A stretch of DNA of 64,000 nucleotides from Chrysophaeum taylorii (lineage: Eukaryota; Sar; Pelagophyceae; Pelagomonadales; Pelagomonadaceae), in assembly GCA_029834535.1 (NCBI GenBank), contig JAQMWT010000390.1, positions 124,001 to 188,000 of the forward strand, in the 5' to 3' direction. Shown in pieces: positions 22,468 to 37,409 of this stretch (its first letter is position 1; each line of letters opens with the position of its first letter). Position numbers and translations under genes: made by a program. The notes below the pieces were generated by a model. That model ran no database searches and was not told where the DNA came from. It saw nothing but the letters and a program-made list of their open reading frames with translations.

Positions 22468-24140
22468 TTGGAAGCTGCTTGCGTCGATGAGCTTGCCAGG
22501 GTCATAAAATCAAACGGCGACGAATGTGAGCTTAGCGCTCTTGGCCAGCTCGTGCCAAAGCTACCCGGAGTGGTCGGGACGCTTGGGGCAGTTTTGCGGC
22601 GAAACGAAGACCGATTCGTCCTTACGGATAAAAAAAAGCGCCCGTCGTCGTCCTCGTTCAGCACGCATTTCAAAACCCCCTTGTTGCATGACATGTTTGG
22701 GTTGATTGCCCACATAGCTGCCGAGTTTCAAGCACGCCCGCCGCCAGCAACGAAGGACGAGTTTCTGTCAGAGCTTCGAGGCGCCGGCGCGACGTCCGAA
22801 GTGCTCCCGGGGAAGCTATGTGAAAGTCGTCGGCGGTGTCAATCAATCTCGAGTGGAATTTAGCAAAAATACTCGATGCGGCTCGGCGTCGCCCAGCCGA
22901 GGATACCGGAGTTCCTATGGCGCGCGAGGGAGATTTCACCTCGTCTATTCCCCAGGCGAGAGCAAGAGCTGAGTCGTCCGACTTCCGCTTCGAGTATTCC
23001 CAACAAGTCTATCTCGATACTCACGATCGCCGCGCGCGACTGCGTCTACATATTTGACTGCATCCACCTTGAATCTCGCGCGCATGGAAATATGTTCGAC
23101 TCGCAGCTCGCCGTCGAATATGGTATCGGTAATCCGGTCGCCAGTTTCGACGAAATGCTCGCACACTTCGACTGCCGCTCATATCTCGCGGAGAATTTGA
23201 AGCGTAGCATGCAGCAGGATGAAAACTACTGGACGCGACGCCCGCTTTCGCGGGAGGCTCTTCGCTACGCCGCGGTAGGCGCGAGCTTGATGTTCGAAAA
23301 CCATTCGCCCACTCTCAAAACGCTCGGTGACATGCCTTGGCGCACTGTCCTCGAAAGCTTCGCGAGAGCGAGCCGACTTTGCGCACGCCGGTGAGCGATC
23401 GCTATGATGCTTTGATATGAGCAATGACTACGCCGTTGCGAGCGCCGAGCTTCTCGAACTCAGGAGCCAGTTTGACATGCTGGCACCCGAACCGCTCAAG
23501 TTTGAGAGTGAAGTGGCGGACTTGTTGGGTCTTCTCCCCGACGACTTGAAACTAAAACTCGTCGGAGGAGGAAGACGAAGCCAACATTCCAACATGGTCG
23601 AGCGACTTTTATCAACCCCTCGTCGTCGTCGCGACGAAGAGTCTATCGTCGCGGAACCGACGAACGAGGCCAATTGGGAACTTTCAGACGTTGTCCTCGA
23701 CTACGGTCGTCGACCTTGGTGTATGCTCTCGCGAGGGAGCGCGTTATGCTGTCGCACGATCCCGAGCGAATGGTCATACGGCGCGACCTCGATGTATCAT
23801 CGAGAAGATCGGGGGGGTTGGCCACGACAACCGCGCGGGCCTCGAGCGCAAACTTCACCGCATCAGTGCCATACGCGACCGTATGCGGGGGGAATCGTTG
23901 GTCTATAACTACGCGCGTTGGTCGTTGTTGGTTTCGCGGAAACGCAGCCATGCTCTCCGACCTCCTGCTGGGCAGCAACAAGTCCATCCTCATTCTTGGC
24001 GAGCCCGGCAGCGGCAAGACAACAATCGTGCGCGATGCGACGCGACTCCTCGCCGAGCGCCACAACGTCTGCGCGGTTGACACGTCGAACGAAATCGCTT
24101 GCGACCGGCCGGAGTCCTCACTCGCTCTTCTAGCACGCGT
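22468..24140 (+). pseudogene. Broken 3'-5' exonuclease plus Ycf45-type ATPase gene
   Basis: Fragments on one strand, in an order that reads as one gene. About 22960-23390 gives a DEDD exonuclease domain of the EXD1/RNase D type: YIFDCIHL, then NMFDSQLAVEYGIGNPVASF, then WTRRPLSREALRYAA. From 23417 follows the N-terminal part of Ycf45/SpoIIIAA-like ATPases (ADLLGLLPDDLKLKL, then LSDVVLDYGRRP), then in a new frame GGVGHDNRAGLERKLHRISA, then in another the Walker A segment ILILGEPGSGKTTIVRD and VCAVDTSNEIACD. The reading stops there, before Walker B. At least four frame changes and the truncated ATPase show decay. An earlier segment, 22468-22860, has no known domain. Confidence 0.75.
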
Positions 24141-24333
24141 GAAGTTTTTAACCCCATCTCTCTCTCCACCACCACCACCACCACCGCAGGCGACGGCAGC
24201 ATTCGCACGAGTGCATCGGGTATATGCTCGACGACGAGTGGCGGCGCGTGAGCCTTCCTCAACGGCCAGGAATAGTCCTTCCTGGTTGTGCAACAAACAC
24301 CCTAAACCCTCCTTGCGAATTAAAACCCTAGAT

Positions 24334-25362
24334 ATGAGGACGCTTCGATGGTGCGGTCGCACGCTGTCGAGCGCGGCAGCGGTGGCCCCGCGGCCCGAGC
24401 AGCTGCGGGCCGTGTTCGTGTGCAACGCGATTCCGATGGTGGGGTTCGGGTTCATGGACCAGACCGTCATGGTTCACGCGGGGAACGCCATAGACATGAC
24501 CTTCGGGGTGACGTTTGGGTTTTCGACTTTAACGGCGGCGGCGATGGGCCAGATCTGCAGCGACGTCGCGGGGGTGACGTTTGGCGGCGCGATCGAGACC
24601 CTCGCGGCCAAGTGCGGCCTTCCGGACCCCAAATTGTCGTCGTCTCAAAACGCGCTCCGGGTCGTAAAGCGGTACGGCTTCGCCGGAAGGATTCTCGGCG
24701 TTGTCGTGGGCTGCGTCCTCGGGCTCACGAATCTCCTCATGGTCGACGCCACCAAGACGCAGCAGCTCAAGCTCGAGAAGCACGACGAGGGCCATTCGGT
24801 ATCCGTGTCGAATCGCGAGAGAAAGGACGCGACGACGGTCGTGGTCGAGGGCCCGGACACTGACGGTCTCCTCGCTTCTATCGCCACCACCCTCGCTGCG
24901 GCGGGGTATTCGTTGATGGAGGTGCGCGGCGGCCCCGTCGGCGACAAAATTATGGACGTCTTTACCGTCACCAAGGCCGGCCAGCGCGTCCACGACGACG
25001 AGCTCGAGTATCTCGCCAGATGTGTTGTCGACGCATGCAGAAACCCCAAGCAAGCGCGCGCCCTTCAGGTCGACAACGACCGCCTCCGCGCCGAGAACCA
25101 GGACCTCCGCGATAAGGTCGACGAACTCACGCACGAACGACGCGTCCGCATCGCGCGCACCGATACCCGCCACTTCCGCGCGTTGACCTCCTCTAGAAAG
25201 ATCGACGACGCCATCGGGAATCCTCCCATGCGCAGTCGCACAGCGAGGATTCTCCCGGCACAACAACAACATCACGACGACGACGAAGAAGAAGAAGAAG
25301 AAGAAGAAGACCTACTCGCAGATGAAGAAACCCCCGACCCTCCGACGGACCGATCGCTCTAG
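24334..25362 (+). CDS. TMEM65-ACT domain fusion protein
   Basis: 342 residues from the ATG at 24334; the open frame extends upstream into the broken ATPase gene, but the Arg/Ser-rich start MRTLRWCGRTLSSAAAVAP fits a mitochondrial presequence. Residues about 28-137 match the TMEM65 domain (NAIPMVGFGFMDQTVMVHAG, then GFSTLTAAAMGQICSDVAGV, then the GVVVGCVLGL helix), an inner-mitochondrial-membrane family tied to ion handling. Residues about 167-235 form an ACT-like fold (VEGPDTDGLLASIATTLAAA, then KIMDVFTVT), normally a small-molecule sensor. A predicted coiled coil (about 240-275) and an acidic tail (about 310-335) follow. The fusion suggests ligand-controlled membrane transport; this is inference. 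(GAA)n encodes the Glu run. Confidence 0.8.
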   Translation: MRTLRWCGRTLSSAAAVAPRPEQLRAVFVCNAIPMVGFGFMDQTVMVHAGNAIDMTFGVTFGFSTLTAAAMGQICSDVAGVTFGGAIETLAAKCGLPDPKLSSSQNALRVVKRYGFAGRILGVVVGCVLGLTNLLMVDATKTQQLKLEKHDEGHSVSVSNRERKDATTVVVEGPDTDGLLASIATTLAAAGYSLMEVRGGPVGDKIMDVFTVTKAGQRVHDDELEYLARCVVDACRNPKQARALQVDNDRLRAENQDLRDKVDELTHERRVRIARTDTRHFRALTSSRKIDDAIGNPPMRSRTARILPAQQQHHDDDEEEEEEEEDLLADEETPDPPTDRSL

Positions 25363-25985: not shown

Positions 25986-25990
25986 ACCAA
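25986..25990. repeat. Target-site duplication (left)
   Basis: ACCAA, repeated at 37405-37409 just outside the other end of the retrotransposon; 5 bp is the normal length for Ty1/copia insertions. Confidence 0.85.
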
Positions 25991-26308
25991 TGCAGAGCAT
26001 TTAGCAAGCAGTGGTAAGTCACCTGGGAAACCATCCCGTCTCGTCGTGTACGTCTGGAAAAAAGGTTAATTCGGGGAATGAAGGTTATGTTCCCTATATC
26101 CTCAGAACACGACAAGCGGCATCTCTAGAACTACACGAGAAAGGTTAAGTGTATAGTGCTACATACCTCGGGACGCGCTAGACCATGATGATGAGCGTAG
26201 GCACAAATCAGAGGACTATTTGATTGTGTAGAAAGGAAGAAGAAGGGTAAGGAAGAGATCACGTTCTCAACGGACGGATAAGGGTAAGAGGCAGCAGATT
26301 TCTCTGCA
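25991..26308 (-). repeat. 3' LTR of the copia element
   Basis: 318 bp, bounded by the inverted repeat TGCAGAG...CTCTGCA, and about 98% identical to 37091-37404. Confidence 0.95.
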
Positions 26309-26316
26309 CCCCCTCG
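26309..26316 (-). other. Polypurine tract
   Basis: Minus strand CGAGGGGG abuts the 3' LTR, the normal site for plus-strand DNA priming. Confidence 0.8.
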
Positions 26317-26562
26317 AGATGTCTTAAGCGCAAGGTGCGACTGTAGAGCATCTCTTGAGAAAGATGATGATGAAGAAAAAAGAAAAAAAAAAGGAAGGAA
26401 TACGGTCTTGATGGTCACAGAGGACACATACGAAGCATCAAGAGTATATAAGGGTCTTAGGACTTGGACTTGGTGGAGCTGAGAGTCGATTTGACCCTTT
26501 TTTGAACAGAACATTAAGAAACACAGATACAACAGACGGTGAGTTAGGATTATTAATCATCG

Positions 26563-27094
26563 TCAGCTTCTGCTGTAAGGTGGTGAACACCAATAGCTGA
26601 ACGATGTGGTGCCAAGAGAAGGGTGAGTGCAAGTAGAGCATTCAGTATGGATGGCGATAGAGAATCTAGTTGAAAAGGTGCCCAGTTGGTTTTCCAAAAA
26701 AAAGGTTGGACTTGGCGAACGAAGAAGGAAGATAGAAGAGTCTTCAGATTCACATGAGAGCGGACGGAATGCTCTGAAGCATGAGAGCAACTTGTCACGT
26801 AGATGAAGGAGGTGGTCGTCCGGGGAGGAGTAGTTGGTAGCATGTTGATAATGAGCGGTGAGTATTAAGCGAGACAACAGCTCTGTGATCTTGTACAGTG
26901 TATAAGTAACACGTGGGTGTTGGCTGTAGGAGGGAAGAGCCGGTTCTCCAGGGAGGTGTTTCCTGGAGTTGGTCGACTTGTTGGCACAAGAAGTCGGAAT
27001 CAACAAGCGAAGCAGAAGGCGTAGGTAACGGTGGCGAAGATATCTCCAGAGTAGCGTCTAGCGTGGAGTGTGAGTAGTTTAACGACGTTTCGGT
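26563..27094 (-). CDS. Copia element: last polyprotein unit, function unknown
   Basis: Begins at the fifth SLNY-type site (27094). The frame of that site stays open to 26795 (about 90 residues past the site), while an overlapping frame (27006-26563, 147 codons) also has protein-like composition with amphipathic segments such as ITELLSRLILTAHYQH. A one-base shift between the two would give one C-terminal domain of roughly 180 residues. No family recognised. Position after RNase H is unusual for copia elements, where RNase H normally ends the polyprotein. Confidence 0.45.
27074..27094 (-). other. SLNY-type candidate cleavage site 5
   Basis: Encodes TETSLNY followed by S. It is preceded by a run of nine T on the coding strand, a place prone to frame change. 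Confidence 0.65.
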
Positions 27095-27326
27095 CAACGT
27101 TAAAAAAAAAGGGGTGCAGGAAGCCTTAATGTTCTGCCTGAACATAAGTGTGGCCGAACATTACATCCCGGAGTAATAGCGGTTCTGTATCATCAGAGGA
27201 TGATGCGTAGTTGTTAAGATGTTGTACACGCGATCAGATAACAGTATGAATCACATGGTGGTATTTGGTGGCTTGAACATAGCCTGAGTTTTACGAGCTT
27301 GTGTTTGCTCGAGCGTTACAAGAAGG

Positions 27327-28242
27327 TTAAGATGCTCCAGGTGCATCTGAGTAATAAGTGGAGTCTGTGGCTGCATCGGTTACTGATAAGACTAAGTGAG
27401 CAAGTGACGAATGTTGCGTTAGATTTCTGGTCAAGAGCATATGTAGCTCCTTTGGCAAATGATACGTGCGTATGATGGTTGCGCGTATATGACCAGCTGA
27501 GCACCCGTTACAGGAGGGTTGGAAGGAAGTAGCATTACGTGCACATACGTTAGGTTGTATGGGCGCCTGATCGGTGTTGTGACAAGCACAACAAATGTTA
27601 GTGGTGATAGTTGAGATGGGAATATGACCATTCTTCTTGTGGTCATCTGTGTTAAGGTGACTCAGCACTTCAGTGGGGAGTTCACTAGGTGCTTGTGACT
27701 TCGAATTATATGTGGTAGAAGCAAGAAATGTAGGCTGTCCTAAGTCGTTGAGACACTGCGTACAATAGGATGACAGGATGAAACGTTCACGTTTGGGGCC
27801 TCTGTAGCAGCCAATAGAAGTAATAGCAGGAGCAGCTTCCCAAAATGTAGTAATGGGTAGGCGCATAGATATGAAGGTCGTAAGTTCCACAAACAGTAAA
27901 GAGTCAGCAGATTCATATATCGAGTTGAGTGCCGTAGAGATTTCCGCTCGCATAACAGAAGAGAGAAAGGGCGTAGCAGGAGTACGGAAGCTCTCAGAAC
28001 GAGAGAATCCTCGTTCAATCAGGGCAAAATCCATGTTGAGGCCATCGCTGGTGTCGGTGAGACAGTAGCAGCCTGGGAGGTAGTAGGAGTGACAGTGGTT
28101 ATGGGTTGTCGCTTTTGAAACAACTTGGGAGAGATGCCACGGCCACGGGAGTGTCAAGAAGACATGAACAACACTTGCCCGTGTACAAAAAAAATTGTGG
28201 CAAGAGAAGGTAAGGCCAGGGATAGTTTAACGACGTTGCGGT
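27327..28242 (-). CDS. Copia element: extra unit with Cys-pair motifs
   Basis: Coding sequence beyond RNase H. It begins at the fourth SLNY-type site in the frame of the RT unit; after about 15 codons an eight-T run lies where reading must move to the frame that stays open to 27327 (276 codons). That frame shows several Cys pairs (CTQC, CCACHN, CNGC) and His residues that could bind zinc, but not a named finger. Neither an aspartic protease motif nor a chromodomain is visible. It may be a nucleic-acid-binding accessory protein; that is inference. Frame breaks could be mutations or a programmed slip at the T run. Confidence 0.5.
28222..28242 (-). other. SLNY-type candidate cleavage site 4
   Basis: Encodes TATSLNY followed by P, in the RT-RNase H frame six codons after a TGA that closes that frame. 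Confidence 0.7.
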
Positions 28243-28260
28243 CACTAGAGTTAGGCATCT

Positions 28261-30147
28261 TCAATCCTGTAAAGGATTGTCGTCAGAGGCATGATGCATA
28301 CCGAGTAGAGAACGAAAAGTGGAGAACTCAGCAGCAAGTGGTTTTGTAAAACCATCCGCCACGTTCAGCTTGCCAGGAACATGATGGACTCGTATTTTCT
28401 GAAGCGATATGTACTCACGAATCTTAAACCATCTGGTCGACAGTGCCTTGGATCGAGAGGACCCATCTGGGTTATTAGAGGTGTGAACAGCGGCAGCATT
28501 GTCAGACAAGAGGAGGCTTCTGATGAAGCGCATATCTTCAGCAATTGGGTTGTCATTGTCATCGAAGTCAACAGGGTCAGCGGTGTTCTCACCATTAGCA
28601 TTGTTGACGTAGAAGGTGGGGTTGACGACAAAGGAGAGTTCCAACAGCAGCTTGCGTAGCCAAACAGCTTCATCAGCACAAATACTGAGGGCAATCAACT
28701 CAGCTTCGTGAGTTGAGCAGGAGACAATCGGTTGAAGTTTGCTTTTCCAACCAATAAGGCAGTTGAAAAGATAGAAGACAAACCCGGTGGTAGATTTCCT
28801 ATCTTCCTGTGCTAAGGAAGGGGCATTGTCAGCGTCAACCATGGCAACTAAGGGGTCAAACTGTCCAGTAGATACATCCTGCGGTTGGTAGTCGACCACA
28901 GTGGATAGATCAATTCGATTAGCGGAGACAGTGCGAAGGTGAGCTTCAATGGCATTACCTTTAGGATGAAACCAGAGGCGAAGTGAGCGGTTTTCCGGCT
29001 TCTTGAGGTAGCGAAGCAAATGCTCTAGCATTTGGACGTGAACATACGTGGGTGCATGCATACCACGCGAACATCTGCCCAAGGCTTGCGAGAAGTCAGG
29101 TCTGCAGGCAACTTGCATGAACACCAGCTTGCCAAGGAGGGTGGCAAAGTGCGAGTTGATGTACAACTCTGTTTCAGTGCTGGGAGTGCCATCTTTATAC
29201 TTGAAGGACGATGACATAGGATATTTAAGCGGGGTCAGTTGCTGCAAGACTGGGTGATCAGCGAAGAGTTCATCCAGCTTGGCTTGCACATCCAGAGAAA
29301 TGGAGCCGTCAGATGTGCGACACACACGCATGCCTAGGAGGGTATGGACAGGTTCAAACTGCTCTACAGCATACCGTTTGTGGAGGGCATCCTGTAATTC
29401 AGTACGAAGAGGGTCGTCATTGGACACAATAACAATGTCGTCTACAGACAGACTGCATACGACGAACTTAGCATGTGCGGATACTCGAGCATATAGGCAA
29501 GAGTCCGAATGCAGGCGTTTGTAACCAAGGCTACGGAAGAAGCCGTCTATCTCTTTGTTCCAAAGGGATGGTGATTGCCGAAGTCCATAAAGTGACTTCA
29601 GCAGTTTCGGTAGACGTCGGCCCTTGTACTTAGCGTCATCGGGGTCGATAAGCTTGATGCCGTCTGGTAACTGAACATAGACATTGGCATCGATGTCAGA
29701 CTGAACGAAGGCGTTCGGGACGTCTGCATGGTAGACAGGCAATTGCTTGTATGCTGCAATAGCTAGTAGTACCCGGATTGCGGTCATGGTGGCCATGGGG
29801 CTGAAGGTGCCAAAGAAATCGGCGCCAAGAGATGCTAGGAAGCCACGTAGTACGAGGCGAGCCTTGTGCTTAACGTATTTGCCTGCAGAGTCTGTTTTAA
29901 TCTTCAGCACCATCTTGCTGTCAATAGGACGAGAGACACCGTCGGGTAAGGAAAGTTTGAAGCAGCCAAAGCGGATAATGTCGTGGAGTTCCTTGGCGAT
30001 GGCCTTGAGGTAGGCGTGCCTGTTTTCAGGCGACAAATCGTGGAGGCACTCAAGTTTATATTCGTCAATGGAAACGTCCGCTTCTTGGACCTTATATTCG
30101 TCAGGACCAACAGTGGCTGGTGAATTATAGTTTAGCGACGTTGCGGT
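28261..30147 (-). CDS. Copia reverse transcriptase-RNase H unit
   Basis: Copies element RNA into DNA in cytoplasmic particles. The open frame begins at 30774, but the unit proper starts after the third SLNY-type site at 30127-30147. RVT_2 features: KARLVLRGF, the HADVPNAFVQSDI catalytic Asp region, LYGLRQSPSLWNKEI, and the active-site box SVDD (YVDD in most relatives) in LSVDDIVIVSND. RNase H follows: VDADNAPS, EDRKSTTGFVFYL, WKSKLQPIVSCSTHEAEL, then DNAAAVH and the end block RWFKIREYI...VPGKLNVADGFTKPLA. All key acids are present, so this part looks intact. It ends with TGA at 28261. Confidence 0.95.
   Translation of the reverse strand, partial: TATSLNYNSPATVGPDEYKVQEADVSIDEYKLECLHDLSPENRHAYLKAIAKELHDIIRFGCFKLSLPDGVSRPIDSKMVLKIKTDSAGKYVKHKARLVLRGFLASLGADFFGTFSPMATMTAIRVLLAIAAYKQLPVYHADVPNAFVQSDIDANVYVQLPDGIKLIDPDDAKYKGRRLPKLLKSLYGLRQSPSLWNKEIDGFFRSLGYKRLHSDSCLYARVSAHAKFVVCSLSVDDIVIVSNDDPLRTELQDALHKRYAVEQFEPVHTLLGMRVCRTSDGSISLDVQAKLDELFADHPVLQQLTPLKYPMSSSFKYKDGTPSTETELYINSHFATLLGKLVFMQVACRPDFSQALGRCSRGMHAPTYVHVQMLEHLLRYLKKPENRSLRLWFHPKGNAIEAHLRTVSANRIDLSTVVDYQPQDVSTGQFDPLVAMVDADNAPSLAQEDRKSTTGFVFYLFNCLIGWKSKLQPIVSCSTHEAELIALSICADEAVWLRKLLLELSFVVNPTFYVNNANGENTADPVDFDDNDNPIAEDMRFIRSLLLSDNAAAVHTSNNPDGSSRSKALSTRWFKIREYISLQKIRVHHVPGKLNVADGFTKPLAAEFSTFRSLLGMHHASDDNPLQD
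30127..30147 (-). other. SLNY-type candidate cleavage site 3
   Basis: Encodes TATSLNY followed by N, exactly between the integrase C-terminal extension and the first conserved block of reverse transcriptase. Confidence 0.75.
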
Positions 30148-32313
30148 CGAGGTAGTGTGCGCAACTTCGGGATAAGTGGAAACAGCGTCAGTCGGAGTAG
30201 TAGGGGCAGATTTCAGTTGGATATGGATAGTAGGGTCGGTACGTAAGACCTGGGTGATAAACTCTGTAGAGACCAGAAGGTATTCCTCCAAGTCAGCCAG
30301 AGATGCAGATGTAGCGCCAAACTCGGATGAGTTGTGATCAATAAAGCTGGTCGGTGCCAGGTACGTAAGTGCATATTGTAAGGAAGAAGTGCCGAAGGCA
30401 GCAGCGTGTTCAGTGAACGCAGATAAAAGGGGCTGAGGAATAGGGCACGTAGGTGAACCATCAGCAGTTAAGAAGGTTGCAGCTGGGATGCTGGATGCGC
30501 ACTTGGCGTGGGCGAAGTAACCATCGACGTGCGGGTAGCGGGCAAGTAAGTCAGTGCGCAACGGGAGAAGAAGACGAGCTAACAACGCATGTTCCCCCTC
30601 TGAGCAGATAGCAGACCAGAGGATACCACCACGGAGATGAAGGGCGGAGAGGGCGGGAGACTTGAACGTAAGAAAGTGGTGGCGAAGATCCCAGCGGAAA
30701 TCGGCGAGCTTGCCACCAGCGGCTTTGTAAGCACCAATAGTAGACGCTTGTAACCGGGCTCGGATAGTTTTCATAGAAGTGGCCTTGCGAGTGTTAGGCT
30801 GTTTGGAACCTGGGACAAGAATGAGGTCATCTTGTGCAAAAGATCTTTGTAAGAAGGAAGCAAGGGCGGCGGTGACATAGAGCCAGATTCGTCGGCGGTA
30901 ACGTCAGAAGATGGAGAAGAGGCCGGAGTAGGGGACGAAGAAGGAGGAGCGGAAGGAGGTGGGGAGTGCCCCCTCTGAGGATGAGGAGTCCTTGTCCCCT
31001 CTGAATGACATGGTCTTGGATAGTGGTGTGGGGTGTGAGCGAGAAAGGCGCGGAAGGAGCGTGTGGCGGAGGAGCTAGTTCAGGATCAGGAGTAGGATGC
31101 TGCAACATGTAGAGGAATTGCAGCTTGGACGAAACACGAATTTGTCCGTTTTCAGGGTTGAGGACGACGTCAGCGAGATGGTCGACGCGTGGGGAGACGA
31201 GCGGGTTTTGTGCGTTGGCGCAACAGAGATACAGATATTTGCGGCGGCACGGTTCCCACTTGTGGTGTTCATGGGGCTCCAATAGGAGGTAACATTCAGC
31301 GCCAAAATCTTGAGCATATCGTGTTGGGGAGTGCTGAGTTGGTTGTAGAGTAGCTGTTGCGGACTCAGAATAGCATGATGAATGCGCTCGAGCGTGGCGT
31401 TCGGGAGAAGGTTATAGCTTTGAACGGTGTGTATCACCGCCCATGGGAACATGATAGCGGGCTCCACGATCTTGGCGCCACGATAGTGAGCATTAAGGAG
31501 AGAACGAAGGCGAGTTGAGGAGGCGGAGGCGATGAAACCGATGGCAGACTCAACTTCAAAGTTAAAGTGGTGCATGTACGGCGGGAAGGCAATGAGTTGA
31601 ATGCCCTTATCGACGCGGTACGGGGAGGTAATGTGCTGGCTAAAGTAAGGCTTGAATGCATCGGAGTAGAGGGTGCGCATGTGCACATTGAGTTGTGTAC
31701 GACAGAAGTCATACACAAAATCCAGAGCTTGAGTGAACTCCGTGGCGTTGGTGGTGCGTGTAAAGTACACCAAGAGAAATTTCGAAATGAGTTCCTTGAA
31801 GACGATGATATGTGTGAAGCCTCCCCATTCGGATGGGATGGTCACATAGCCGCCGTCGCACGCCCAGACTTCACCGGCTTTGTGAGTTTGCTCAAAAGAG
31901 GGCTTGGTCGCATTGAAATGCTTGTGCGGGTGGCGCTTGTTGTGTGCGATGCAGTCGGTGCATAAGTCGCGATATGGTATGTCAGAAGCAGAGAATCCAG
32001 GGCGAGCAAGTACGTTGGGGGCCTTGGCAGCGACGTTGTCGGGGCAGTGATGCACCCGGTGAAAGCGATTAGCACGTTCTTTGGCATTGAGATATTCGGT
32101 GGATCCGTGTGCGAGGGACTTACGAGGAATTGGATGAGTGGGAATGTGCCGTTTGCGCCGAACATCGAACTTGAGTTCGGTGTCTAAGGCAGTGGAAGGC
32201 GGTGCGTCGTCATCCTGGTGCGCAGCAGGGTCACTTGGAGGTGCATCCTCATTATCACGAGTAGCGAGAGTATCTTCGTAGGACGACGATATATAGTTTA
32301 ACGACATTTCGGT
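30148..32313 (-). CDS. Copia integrase unit
   Basis: Inserts element DNA into the genome. It starts after the second SLNY-type site. An HHCC zinc site (FHRVHH..., CTDC) is followed by VWACDGGYV, LYSDAFKPYF and FNFEVESAIGF, giving the Asp, Asp and Glu of the DDE core. The main frame stays open to 31075. The typical copia segment after the core (YAQDFGAECYLLL, then KYLYLCCANAQ and VLNPENGQIRVSSKLQF) is in another frame from about 31330 to 30827, so there is a one-base break near 31330. A Pro-rich linker then leads back to the RT frame, which runs from about 30890 to site 3. Confidence 0.9.
32293..32313 (-). other. SLNY-type candidate cleavage site 2
   Basis: Encodes TEMSLNY followed by I, between the last methyltransferase motif and the integrase zinc site. 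Confidence 0.75.
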
Positions 32314-34370
32314 CAAGCAGTTGCTGGAAATAGACATCATAAAAGATTGTGCCAAAGACAAGGTATCTGTGCTGCACGTGGTGGAGGCTTGGTCAACGGT
32401 CATGAAATTGGATACATAGGATTTCTTCGTCACGGCAGCAGTATGTTGGAAGGTAGGGTCCAACATAAGGGATTTAATATCGGCGACGATGAGCGAAAGG
32501 TGCTTGTACAGAGTGCTGTACGTACCGGCAGGCAGAGCATTGCTGAGCATGTCACAGCAAAGGTCATGGCGTAGAGACAAGAGGAAAGATTCCTGTTGTT
32601 TGGTGTGGTTGTTAGCACGAATCAACTCCGGTCGAGTGGGGTAGCGTAATTTCCCGTTGCGAGGGTCGAGTAAAATAATATTGGCATACCCTCGGACGGT
32701 TGGCAATGGAGCAAGCATTGAGTGGATTTTAGAGCCGAGTTTGCGGTCACTTCCACGAAGGTACCCTATATAGCGACTATGAGATAGGTGATGATCTTCC
32801 AGAGCAAAAAGAGAATCCTTGTAATCGAAAGAGTTGTCGGTGGCCTTGTAGGTAAGGCAGCCAGGCATCACGAGAGCGCATCTGGACACGAGGTTTTGTA
32901 TGGCGGTGCCATAGGTGGTAGCGGAGCCAACTTGGGGAAGGGCTTGGACTATCCACAAGTAACCCATAAACGGCTCCAGATATATGGACCTGTCCCGGTC
33001 GCGGGGGATGTCGGAAGCAGTGAACGTATACGTGCTCCCAAAGGCGTTGATGGGGGTCTTTTGGTTGGTGGTGGCGTTCTCTATGGTGAGGTTGCCGTCG
33101 GAATGGTGGCCACCAGTTAAGAAGTAGGAGTTGTGTGATGTTGATGAGGTTGTAAGTAATAACCTGTGTGACGGTTGGTTAGTTTCGAAAACGGTTATGT
33201 AATAGGACACAGGAGTGGGTGAGTTAGTATGTAAGCTTGCGAACACGTTATAGAGGATTGTAAAAATCTTGACGTGTATAGGATGTGTTGCATTGGGTAA
33301 TGGCTCCATAGAGGAGCGTTTAAAGCACAACTGATGGTAAGTACACTCGGGTTGAACAGAGTGAGTACGTTGCTCGTGAGCCTGTTGTGAGTGAAGGCGA
33401 AGTAGTAACATATTGAGGGATTCAAGGTCAGCCATAGTAAGCTGAGCAGAACCTGTGCGAGAGTAAGGTGCAAACGTTTTAGGAACGGGTATATATGGAG
33501 GATCGGGGAACACCCGGATCCAGTCTTTGGTTAGGTGGTTAGGTAGCCAAAGGCGCTTGGGAATAGCTTGTAGATCATCCACGATCTTTAGGAAGGGGCG
33601 TGGATGGAGGATGGGCCACGATGATAGTTTAATTGGTCCAGTAGAATATCTGCGTGCGACGCATATCCACCTTTCTCTAGATTGGTAGTCGCCACATAGG
33701 TAGGTCGGGAACCTATCAACAACATCGACACAGTAATCAAGGGTAGTATAGATAAGGTTGGCCACTGTGATGTGGTCTTGATGACAGTACTTATGCGGAG
33801 GCGTCATCTCAGCCAGTAGTACCAAGGGCTGGAGTAGCTTGATGACAGACAGCATGCTGTCGAAACGTCCAGCAGACTGTGTAAGTCTTCTGACTTTTGT
33901 TGTTTTAGTAAATTCCTGTTTGTGCAGGGAGGTGTGATCTCGATTATATCACAATAGAATGAGCGCCTTTCCTCGGGTGAGATTAGGTGAAGATGGTTAA
34001 TAAAGGCGGGGAGAGATTCAAATAATAGTACAGTAGGAAAACGGTGGCGTAACATACGAACAAGCGTATCATCAGACTCAACAACAACTTTTACATTGAT
34101 ATTTAAGCCTAAGTCATTAGTGGCTTGAGACAGGAACGCCGGAGTTGACAAACCAGAACAAAGTAACATGACAGGGGTTTGCGGAGATTGAACTCTTGTG
34201 AGAGAAAAACTGGCCGTGCGAGTAGTCAACTCAACGGCTGCGTATTTTGCTGAACAAATTTGTTCTGTTTCCGAAGATTGAGAACCAAAGGGCGAATCCA
34301 CGGTCGATCTGGTAAAACTCGTTGGGGGAGGTAATTGTAGTATGCCAGTAGCTCCCTGTTTTCATGGTAT
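32314..34370 (-). CDS. Retrotransposon-borne C5-cytosine DNA methyltransferase-like domain
   Basis: Lies between SLNY-type sites 1 and 2. In the first frame (about 34370-33804): motif I VMLLCSGLSTPAFL (34172), then LGLNINVKVVVESDD (motif II region) and motif IV CDIIEITPPC with the catalytic-type Pro-Cys at 33932-33924. In the Gag/integrase frame, from about 33920: motif VI PLVLLAEMTP (Glu at 33810, ENV changed to EMT), motif VIII GDYQSRERWICVARR (33684), a long variable region of about 330 residues, motif IX RYPTRPELIR and motif X LSNALPAGTYSTLYKHLSLI. Order and spacing fit DNMT/Dcm-type enzymes that methylate cytosine in DNA. A one-base frame break separates IV from VI near 33920, so this copy probably makes no active enzyme unless frameshifting occurs. 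Confidence 0.75.
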
Positions 34371-34494
34371 CGCTTGAGGGGAAATGCAAGGGAGCGAAGT
34401 TCCAGCCGCTTGTCGCGCGCGATGTTGTAGGTGATGCAAGGGAGAGCGGGTAAATTAGCTGCGACATAGTGTATGGGTATACGTACATCTTTGT

Positions 34495-36564
34495 CTATGC
34501 GGCTCGTGACAGCGCTGAGCTTTGGCTCAGCTCGATCGTTGAACACGGTGGTAATGGCTCGTCAGCCTCATCAGCCATGCCGTGCTTTTCGTCAAATGAC
34601 GATAGGGAGGTGTGGTCGGCATCCCTTGTGGGTTCGGCTTGTGGTGGTAGATTGAGGGCAGATTGGACCTGTGAAGATAGCGAGGACAATAATGCTGGTG
34701 GTAAAGCCGAGATGGCGGAAGCGGTAAAGAGGTTAGACACAGTATTGGAAGGATTACCCTGTGTGTTTGTAGTAGGAGGAGTTGTTGTTGGGGTGGGAGC
34801 AGTAACGACAGTATGGTGTTGTGGCTCCACGTAGTTTAACGACTTTTCGGTCGAGGATAGATGAACGTCTACATCATAAATGATGTCTTCTGCAAACATG
34901 AGCTGTTCGTTTAGACGAAGTAAACTACTGTTGTCCTCAGTAGATGTTGTTGACAGGATATCGGCTGATTGTAGCAAGGTCTCAAATAACTTGTTGATAT
35001 TCTGTTGTAGCTGAGCCGTGGTATCATTATCTGTCACATGCTTCGTGAGTTCGCTACACTGTTCTCGCAGGGTGTTTAAGGTGTGGTTTGTTCGATCTAA
35101 TAATTTCATGTTAGACCGAGAGGACCTGTCAAAAGTGCGGGGGTAAATTGGACGGTCATGGGACTGTCCGGCAGTTTTCTTGGTGACGTAAGAATCACCA
35201 GGACGATAATACGATAAATCGCTGCGAGAGAAAGGCTGGCGAGCATCATTAGAGTTACGCAAGCGTCTAGCATTAAACGTGGAAGATGTACCAGGTTGGG
35301 ACGAAGTGATGAAGGCGAGTGTGTTAGCAGTTTGAGTCAGACTTTTGTCCGATGAGTCCAAAGTATGTGTAAGTAGTAACTTTGGCTTTGGTTGAGATGA
35401 TAAACCTTCGACATAGGGTTGCCAAGAAACAGGGCGTTCTAAGCGTCTTTTGTTCGACCCATTTGATACGACATTGTAAAGGTCTAATGCGTATTCTAAA
35501 ATGTAGCTTGGGTTGGTAGGGTGACACAATCGTTCAGCTTCTGGCACAGGTCGAGATGAAGATCGGGTTTCGTACATATAACACCAATCTACCCAACCAC
35601 GATCGTAACGGTTGTTGCTGGTATTATCGGCATAATGCCGATGTATCTCTTCATAGATTTTTCTGCAAAGAGTGCCAAAGTCGAATTGAAGGTCAGTCTC
35701 TTCCTGGTTAAGTTGGTAAGAGATTTGCCTAAATGCTAGGACAGCTTCGATAAATACATGGACATACCAGTTAGGATTATAAACAACAGAGTTAAATTGC
35801 TGTTTCAAATAAGACACATCAGTAGTCGTAACAGACTCGTAGTGACTAAAGGCGATGAGCATAATAGCTCGAGCCTTGTTGGGTAAATAACTTTTGTTGT
35901 ATACCTCATTGATGGCGGGCCAGGCCGCAAGTGCCGGTTTTCCAACACTTTCAAGATTGAAGTAAGTATGTAAGAATGTAGCGTACGTGTTCTGGTAAGT
36001 GTGCCAGTCAGCTGCAGTTAAAGAAAACATGGTAACCGGGGCACGAACACGAGTGTCGAAAGCTAGTGCCTTCGGGTGCGCGCGATTTAAGATTCGTTCC
36101 TCTTCTAAGAAACGAGCGTTGATTTCAGGACGTAATGCCTTGACTTCATAGTCGTAACAGACGGTAGTTAGCTGAGCTACTTCTGCATCAGGTAAGTGGG
36201 GAAAAGCTTCGTTGGTGAAATGCCATTCCTGATACTCAGGGGGTAACTCATCAACAGTTAAACGGAGATCAGCAGCCCTATCGGTCTTCCATTCCAGGAA
36301 AACGCGATCGAGAATTTGATTCCGGAGGATTTCGTAGTCCTTGCATGGCCGAGTATATGCTTCATACGAGTCGTACTCGAGGAAAGCATCGGCAAGACTG
36401 GACCGTAGTAATTGCTTGATATGCTTGATTTGCAAGGATACCTTGCGGTTCTGAAGCTGAAAGCGGTGGCCCTCATTAAGGAACTCAATTACAGGAGCTT
36501 CGAGCTTCAATATATCCGCACCTGTGATCGCCTTAGGTGCGGCTCGTGCTGCGTGTTCTGCCAT
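34495..36564 (-). CDS. Copia Gag-like protein
   Basis: First coding unit after the leader; 689 residues from the ATG at 36564 (MAEHAARAAPK), since the longer frame starts only at a GTG. It is mostly helical and polar with many aromatic residues, as in capsid proteins. No CCHC zinc knuckle is present. The first SLNY-type site lies at about residue 572, so mature Gag would end there; a Thr/Pro-rich spacer follows and the frame stops at 34495. The coding signal then passes through another frame (34546-34226, residues such as RIPIHYVAANLPALPCITYN) before the methyltransferase. I could not find a DSG/DTG protease site in Gag or in this linker. Confidence 0.75.
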   Translation of the reverse strand: MAEHAARAAPKAITGADILKLEAPVIEFLNEGHRFQLQNRKVSLQIKHIKQLLRSSLADAFLEYDSYEAYTRPCKDYEILRNQILDRVFLEWKTDRAADLRLTVDELPPEYQEWHFTNEAFPHLPDAEVAQLTTVCYDYEVKALRPEINARFLEEERILNRAHPKALAFDTRVRAPVTMFSLTAADWHTYQNTYATFLHTYFNLESVGKPALAAWPAINEVYNKSYLPNKARAIMLIAFSHYESVTTTDVSYLKQQFNSVVYNPNWYVHVFIEAVLAFRQISYQLNQEETDLQFDFGTLCRKIYEEIHRHYADNTSNNRYDRGWVDWCYMYETRSSSRPVPEAERLCHPTNPSYILEYALDLYNVVSNGSNKRRLERPVSWQPYVEGLSSQPKPKLLLTHTLDSSDKSLTQTANTLAFITSSQPGTSSTFNARRLRNSNDARQPFSRSDLSYYRPGDSYVTKKTAGQSHDRPIYPRTFDRSSRSNMKLLDRTNHTLNTLREQCSELTKHVTDNDTTAQLQQNINKLFETLLQSADILSTTSTEDNSSLLRLNEQLMFAEDIIYDVDVHLSSTEKSLNYVEPQHHTVVTAPTPTTTPPTTNTQGNPSNTVSNLFTASAISALPPALLSSLSSQVQSALNLPPQAEPTRDADHTSLSSFDEKHGMADEADEPLPPCSTIELSQSSALSRAA
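34831..34851 (-). other. SLNY-type candidate cleavage site 1
   Basis: Encodes TEKSLNY followed by V, near the end of Gag and in the Gag frame. Confidence 0.75.
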
Positions 36565-37076
36565 AGCAGTTGACGGGGAACCTGTGGGTTCAGTCACGCA
36601 GTTGACACTGTCTAGACATTCTAAGGGGGTCTGTCTGTCGGTGTCTATGTACACTCATCGATTTTTTCGATGGAAAATGTGTCTATATGACGACTGTGCA
36701 AGCTGTGAGTCCAGAGTAGTGTCGCTAAGCGTAGTCACTCAGGCAGCTGGTTAGTTTTGGTGCTCTCAAGGAGCTTGTTAAGTGCATTACCATGGAATGT
36801 ACGAGTGGACGTACCCAAAATATTCCATAACATATGTGCAAGAGTACAGGTTAGCCAATTACACACACATCAACATTGACATGACAATACGATGCTATAA
36901 AACAGGTGCACACAAGGTTACACGATCACGAGTGCAAAAAAATATTATATACAGCCCAGTGGTAATGGCGTTGTATTTACAAGTGTGTTTTCGTGGCGAG
37001 GCTAGGTCGGCGCGGTAACGACCCAATACCCATAGGTTACGTGCACGTTTTAACACATGATATCTCAGGGACCCGC

Positions 37077-37090
37077 CTGGGCCCATAACC
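37077..37090 (-). other. Primer binding site, internal initiator tRNA-Met type
   Basis: Minus strand GGTTATGGGCCCAG begins directly at the LTR edge. It is complementary to CTGGGCCCATAACC of the anticodon arm of eukaryotic initiator tRNA-Met rather than to its 3' end. Drosophila copia uses the same priming with a cleaved tRNA. Confidence 0.85.
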
Positions 37091-37404
37091 TGCAGAGCAT
37101 TTAGCAAGCAGTGGTAAGTCACCTGGGAAACCATCCCGTCTCATCGTGTAAGTCTGGAAAAGGTTAATTCGGGGAACGAAGGTTATGTTCCCTATATCCT
37201 CAGAACACGACAGGCGGCATCTAGAACTACACGAGAAAGGTTAAGTGTATAGTGCTACATACCTCGGGACGCGCTAGACCATGATGATGAGCGTAGGCAC
37301 AAATCAGAGGACTATTTGATTGTGTAGAAAGGAAGAAGAAGGGTAAGGAAGAGATCACGTTCTCAACGGACGGATAAGGGTAAGAGGCAGGAGATTTCTC
37401 TGCA
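37091..37404 (-). repeat. 5' LTR of the copia element
   Basis: 314 bp, with the same TGCAGAG/CTCTGCA ends as the other LTR. It should carry the element promoter; no TATA box is evident. Confidence 0.95.
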
Positions 37405-37409
37405 ACCAA
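37405..37409. repeat. Target-site duplication (right)
   Basis: ACCAA, matching 25986-25990. Confidence 0.85.

Follow-up and report, generated by a model that had tools for sequence, protein, structure and literature searches.

A 2018 paper described DNA methyltransferases (DNMTs) borne by LINE, DIRS and Gypsy elements in dinoflagellates and one charophyte (PMC5890265; statements on cited papers refer to the passages drawn on here), and an initial annotation of the present locus had rightly pointed to dinoflagellates and charophytes for precedents of retrotransposon-captured DNMTs. For Copia elements we found a single mention, a 2025 sentence that places DNMT3 in 'LTR Copia and DIRS' elements (PMC12344493); the section in which it stands gives no element, host or architecture, and it cites the 2018 paper, whose long terminal repeat (LTR) element is a Gypsy. 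Here we analyzed a 64,000-nucleotide stretch of contig JAQMWT010000390.1 from Chrysophaeum taylorii, hereafter the window, which carries on its minus strand a Ty1/copia LTR retrotransposon. The family of this element, family A, contains a domain of about 570 amino acids (aa) that is almost certainly a homologue of cytosine-5 DNA methyltransferases (C5-MTases).

Family A resembles KnitGypsy-Dnmt3 of Klebsormidium nitens, in which a C5-MTase also lies within the Pol of an LTR retrotransposon, and purifying selection is indicated in both (Ka/Ks below 0.2 in KnitGypsy-Dnmt3, dN/dS of about 0.2 in family A). In contrast, KnitGypsy-Dnmt3 is a Gypsy element with a recognisable Dnmt3, whereas family A is a Copia family of another host lineage whose divergent MTase is not shown above the PF00145 cut-off (PMC5890265). 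Similarly, SymbioDIRS-Dnmt3 and SymbioLINE-Dnmt of Symbiodinium are like family A in their hundreds of genomic copies and in having more than one diverged family per genome, but they are DIRS and LINE elements of dinoflagellates, with a tyrosine recombinase or an endonuclease rather than a DDE integrase (PMC5890265). No title or abstract in the literature searched reports a C5-MTase carried by a Copia element of a stramenopile. Relative to that literature, the Copia architecture behind a UGA codon, the divergent active-site words and the probable stramenopile host are new; neither the element class (Copia) nor that host is among the 2018 cases, which were LINE, DIRS and Gypsy. The presence of an MTase in a Copia family, in a genome whose reverse transcriptase relatives suggest a pelagophyte or near stramenopile, would imply that such capture either arose by convergence in very different retroelements or was passed between them, and would be one more instance of a genomic parasite taking up a DNA-marking enzyme.

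The element occupies positions 25991-37404 of the window. Its 5' LTR (37091-37404) and 3' LTR (25991-26308) end in TG..CA (TGCAGA...TCTGCA) and align with 311 identities over 317 bases, the last three of which lie past the LTR end, and with two 2-nucleotide gaps; the 5-bp target-site duplication ACCAA flanks both sides as a direct repeat outside the LTRs (25986-25990 and 37405-37409). The reverse transcriptase (RT) region, at 30774-28261 on the minus strand together with C-terminal RNase H-like motifs, matches Pfam RVT_2 at E 5e-42, over the cut-off. The integrase (IN), with a zinc-finger motif and core at 32190-31290 of the minus strand (outer limits approximate), matches Pfam rve at E 0.0013, below the curated cut-off, over residues 658-740 of the open reading frame (ORF) 33855-31075. 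The RNase H-like motifs and the zinc finger are presumed assignments, made by motif. Integrase lies upstream of RT in the window and in relatives. This element is a Ty1/copia LTR retrotransposon and a decayed member of a high-copy family. The LTRs, the target-site duplication and the RVT_2 match confirm that the domain lies within an LTR-bounded Ty1/copia element, as the initial annotation had it. Its further claim of intact RT, RNase H and integrase signatures holds for the RT, while RNase H is recognised by motif only, the integrase is weak by Pfam, and IN and RT stand in separate ORFs.

The MTase-like domain (34172-32464, minus strand) lies between Gag and integrase, as had been claimed; relatives add a protease region upstream of it. 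The first half, with C5-MTase motifs I, II and IV, extends over 34172-33870 (3' limit approximate) in ORF 34301-33804, and the second half, with motifs VI, VIII, IX and X and a large target-recognition region, over 33855-32464 in ORF 33855-31075, the two frames differing owing to deletions. The order of the motifs is the one expected and noted earlier, the domain is collinear with other C5-MTases, and its motif residues hardly vary among the other copies. Among ten open copies of the domain, PF00145 was the only Pfam family matched (2/10, best E 0.008, weak) and the DNA methyltransferase phrog_116 the only PHROG (8/10, best E 0.0083, weak). We searched a C5-MTase profile of eight sequences, none from a retroelement, against 2356 ORFs and their reversals; the eight were six phage proteins (one, L075, annotated as hypothetical) and two host enzymes, DNMT2 (locus L001; match to 1g55, 3.9e-39) and DNMT5 (L002; match to 7r76, 3e-143). 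ORFs of a second MTase-bearing family, family B, scored E 1e-14 to 1e-21 and family A came next (best 2e-4), followed by the first ORF outside both families at E 1.8 and the first reversed ORF at 5.5. The family A matches span motifs I to VI and are mutually non-independent; the window's first-half ORF reached E 0.059, and its second half is absent from the matches to this profile. By hhalign, the family A core aligned to the same profile with a score of 34.8 (probability 41%), against 11.3 for the reversed core and a mean of 13.9 (maximum 30.1) for 200 column shuffles. An alignment of families A and B with host DNMT2 and DNMT5 contains six invariant columns, including the Cys of PC, the motif VI Glu and a motif VIII Arg. 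Furthermore, a guided structural model of the 230-aa core (mean pLDDT 67, pTM 0.72) best matches C5-MTases, with DNMT2 first by Foldseek (the four best rows are DNMT2 chains) and with DNMT1, ZMET2, M.HhaI, DNMT5 and DNMT3 also among the leading rows.

A number of results weigh against this assignment. By the wording of the initial annotation, the lack of a PF00145 match in either window half would refute its reading, and the Pfam scan gave no match in either; no family A member is shown above the curated cut-off, with the MTase-IN ORF of L014 at 12.6 bits (E 0.088) against 22, a cut-off that is an annotation threshold and not a biochemical feature. The alignment behind the guided model contained the known MTases L001 and L002, so that the model is support and not proof, and an unguided model failed (pLDDT 28). 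Pairwise comparisons of family A with family B were mostly negative (shuffles scoring as well: L003 0/1000, L004 329/1000, window halves 208/1000 and 399/1000), as were those of family A with DNMT2 and DNMT5 (336/1000 and 260/1000); family B compared with DNMT2 and DNMT5 was likewise negative (257/1000 and 311/1000), where profiles succeed. The family A domain found no homologue in a search of 5.8 billion proteins, of which 5687 candidates were scored, and no relevant match in the PDB by sequence, and when a family A profile was used for searching, reversed sequences scored equal to family B. Finally, the textbook active-site words of C5-MTases are PCQ in motif IV and ENV in motif VI, and across family A these deviate to PPCTN and AEM. 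We attribute the missing PF00145 match to divergence of the domain, since the matches of open copies, the profile, the invariant columns and the fold model, all more sensitive than that scan, rescue its identity as an MTase.

Copies of the domain are numerous in the genome assembly (70.8 Mb in 697 contigs), which the genes of the window mark as eukaryotic. There are matches to the 165-aa first half at no fewer than 150 places (150 scored of 1082 candidates), and to the 926-aa piece at no fewer than 57 (49 scored of 2180 candidates). Pairwise dN/dS among 52 copies was 0.18-0.20 for the core of motifs I-VIII, compared with 0.09-0.12 for the integrase, 0.35 for the target-recognition part, 0.21-0.30 for motifs IX-X and 0.33-0.36 for the linker; pairs with less than 70% of the region aligned, with dS of 0.05 or less or with saturated dS were dropped, duplicate loci were excluded, and common ancestry makes the remaining pairs non-independent. 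The Cys of PPC is present in 45/47 copies, the motif VI Glu in 46/48 and the second Arg of motif VIII in 46/49, and eight of the nine positions of motif X are unvaried in 47/47. Judged from these comparisons, purifying selection on an MTase-like domain in copia Pol is supported. Separately, contigs C10 and C297 hold identically scoring matches at near-identical offsets, as if one region had been assembled twice.

The layout of an intact member can be read from relatives. Three of them, L012, L014 and L015, have a Gag frame that includes a protease-like region, then an in-frame UGA and a long ORF (1478, 1230 and 1372 aa, respectively) with the MTase domain and integrase; that of L012 reaches the RT start, and the order in relatives is Gag-PR (protease) region, in-frame UGA, MTase-IN-RT. 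Open frames were found in several copies, as the initial annotation had suggested checking. The Gag frame of L012 also has an earlier stop. The protease-like word DSCAT is present in L012 and L015 and altered in L014, and Pfam gave no protease match. The ORFs in which MTase and IN stand together in L012 and L014 match SH3_retrovirus (E 0.0005 and 0.0003) and rve (E 0.006 and 0.02), all below curated cut-offs. The protease region is fully covered in 47/56 rows (duplicates included) and lies upstream of the MTase. Replacement of the protease by the MTase is rejected, as relatives carry both; the initial annotation had named copies with a protease or unrelated sequence in place of this segment as grounds for rejecting its reading.

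An in-frame UGA occurs in 48/54 rows, with CUA after it in 34 rows and AUG in 7, among rows that contain repeat sightings of three loci (window/L009/L039, L010/L062 and L024/L056). In the window, UGA CUA closes the Gag-PR frame at 34223-34228 of the minus strand. Tca2 of Candida albicans, a copia-type element, offers a comparison for this codon. There too an in-frame UGA parts gag from pol; in contrast to family A, no MTase is mentioned in the passages of PMC2194720 drawn on here, and in yeast the sequences flanking this UGA failed to bring about readthrough. For human genes, a consensus for high readthrough has been derived that reads UGA CUA (PMC4359377). Since the Tca2 flanks alone were not enough, readthrough of the UGA in family A is an inference.

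The window copy itself is dead, with the MTase split, IN and RT in separate ORFs and the protease region deleted. Relative to the open copy L012, in which IN and RT share one frame, the MTase is broken by deletions of 1 and 7 nucleotides. Among 59 matching loci these two deletions occur only at one locus, represented by the window, L009 and L039, and other 1-nucleotide deletions are common to at most 6 loci. Frame breaks shared by many copies, which would have pointed to programmed frameshifting or trans-mobilised copies, are ruled out by this confinement to the window locus. The Gag ORF (36654-34495, minus strand) ends in the deletion that took out the protease region, and a fragment of the Gag-PR frame remains downstream of it (34546-34226, minus strand). 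The protease region is wholly missing with flanks present only at the window locus and L067; both region and flank are missing in L013, and coverage is partial in L026, L036, L043 and L050. Across the deletion junction (window 34495-34550), the window and L067, on different contigs, agree at 580 bases and differ by 20 mismatches and 1 gap, and a protease-less copy has therefore apparently moved. This suggests that protease-less copies may be mobilised with help from others.

PF00145 itself matches at least 57 places in the genome at E <= 0.001 and at least 124 at E <= 10 (123 scored of 474 candidates), and a comparison by eye showed no overlap, among the matches listed, between these places and those of family A. 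Six of the PF00145 places, loci L003-L008, form family B, which has PCQ, and ENV in most members, and scores 36.2 to 46.3 bits against PF00145 in the four scanned. A protease-like DGGAS word lies upstream in L006 and L007, and a downstream zinc finger resembles that of the family A integrase in L007 (0/2000 shuffles) and, less closely, in L004 (26/2000); in L005 no zinc finger was found with the motif word used. As to a possible common capture of the two families, a small tree with DNMT2, DNMT5 and phage proteins grouped A and B with support of 0.968 on very long branches. Neither the target-recognition regions (42 to 141 of 1000 shuffles in six comparisons) nor the proteases (569/2000 shuffles) were significantly similar between A and B, and hhalign of A against B was not significant. 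A search for family B homologues found none among the best 8000 candidates scored, viral contigs gave no match, and the PDB by sequence gave one weak C5-MTase row (E 0.84). On this sequence evidence, a single genome is host to at least two retroelement-borne MTase families, of which family B is the better conserved. The 116 further PF00145 places include groups that match only PF00145 positions 2-53 or 7-77, and split or weak matches on contigs C260 and C57 may be another host DNMT.

Our overall reading, which we favour with modest confidence, is that family A is a copia family whose Pol begins with a divergent C5-MTase that methylates the element's own cDNA or insertion. The MTase is probably an active enzyme used in the life cycle; that the element's own DNA is its main substrate is a more tentative proposal. 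Ribosomes passing the UGA would make Pol, and hence the MTase as its first domain, as a minor product, and the MTase would enter the particle together with IN and RT. In the particle or the nucleus it could then methylate cytosines in the cDNA of the element itself or in its new insertion, and the methylated new copy might be accepted, or silenced in a tolerable way. DNMT5 is a maintenance enzyme elsewhere, and the host DNMT5 could then keep the methyl mark. For retrotransposon DNMTs de novo CG methylation has been reported, with the same reasons discussed by de Mendoza et al. (PMC5890265), and DNMT5 accompanies heavy linker methylation in Aureococcus (PMC9998398). The presence of a host DNMT5 opens two questions to testing, namely which benefit a retroelement draws from new methylation and where hosts without DNMT3 obtain de novo methylation.

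Several alternatives to methylation of the element's own DNA were weighed, and the footprint of methylation bears on more than one of them. The observed-to-expected CpG ratio is 0.92 in the element and 1.24-1.36 in its flanks, and the all-site ratio of CpG to non-CpG differences among copies is 1.07-1.14. At silent third positions, however, C/T differences before G (0.148) hardly exceed those elsewhere (0.143), and G/A differences after C (0.118) hardly exceed the remainder (0.110); there is no CpG excess, and CpG decay as a footprint of methylation was thus not found among copies. This counts against a DNA substrate, although missing CpG decay need not exclude methylation, because the flanks are CpG-rich. 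DNMT2 methylates tRNA, and the absence of CpG decay would suit a domain with the primer tRNA or the genomic RNA for its substrate, as would the DNMT2 chains that lead the Foldseek rows and the PPCTN and AEM words, which may reflect a shifted substrate. RNA methylation was also raised for SymbioLINE by de Mendoza et al. (PMC5890265). We consider an RNA substrate fairly unlikely. An MTase that acts on the host genome, supplying de novo CG methylation maintained by the host DNMT5, is unlikely in our view. The host has DNMT5 and DNMT2, DNMT3 is reported as absent in most stramenopiles except diatoms (PMC9998398), and well over a hundred places bear MTase-containing elements; against this, copies lack CpG decay, and the six-frame DNMT census scored 123/474 candidates, so that it may have overlooked a DNMT1 or DNMT3 of the host. 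A bolder form of this idea, which we judge quite improbable, is that, where DNMT5, a maintenance-type enzyme, is the only CG methylase of the host, the MTase-bearing copia is the source of new cytosine methylation; each retrotransposition would write marks that the host copies, and the methylome would be parasite-seeded.

It is also rather unlikely that the domain is no longer an enzyme and is kept as a structural part of Pol for binding AdoMet, cDNA, IN or RT. The changes from PCQ to PCT and from ENV to EMT are family-wide, as such a role would allow, but the near-invariance of the PPC Cys, the motif VI Glu, the second motif VIII Arg and motif X speaks against it. A captured gene fragment that drifts unused as a hitchhiker is disfavoured and very improbable: the window copy is indeed broken, but open frames persist in several copies, and both the dN/dS of about 0.2 over 52 copies and the near-invariant motifs argue against drift. 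Methylation of the element's own cDNA or insertion by an active MTase remains the reading that we prefer.

A 21-nucleotide sequence is present in five copies in the window, all inside the element and in sense orientation, where 0 were expected (100 shuffles). On the minus strand, copy 1 (34832-34852, encoding TEKSLNY) lies between Gag and the PR region, copy 2 (32294-32314, TEMSLNY) between MTase and IN, and copy 3 (30128-30148, TATSLNY) between IN and RT, so that all three encode T-x-x-SLNY; copy 4 (28223-28243) directly follows the RT stop, and copy 5 (27075-27095) also lies after it. Copies 1, 2 and 3 are found at the same places in 9/11, 11/11 and 9/11 other family A loci, respectively, with up to 4 mismatches, and the repeat was absent from four family B loci. 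Silent variation at the repeat codons is below that of the surroundings at two of the three sites and is not exceptional (33/363, 227/1471 and 803/1471 windows as low). A protease-cleavage site and a nucleic-acid signal are both candidate roles, and if the methylome were parasite-seeded the repeat would be a candidate for the site of recognition or processing.

The primer-binding site GGTTATGGGCCCAGG stands beside the 5' LTR (37076-37090, minus strand) and is presumably complementary to the anticodon arm of initiator tRNA-Met; ARAGORN found no tRNA genes in the window. The RT has 88 relatives, nearly all with RVT_2, the closest being an MMETSP protein (55% identity), a protein of the pelagophyte Aureoumbra lagunensis (51%) and a protein of another contig (49%). 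The N-terminus of the Aureoumbra lagunensis Pol protein begins just upstream of the integrase. Elsewhere in the window, ORF 23674-25362 joins AAA-like, TMEM65 and ACT domain matches, an odd combination in which only TMEM65 and ACT reach their cut-offs.
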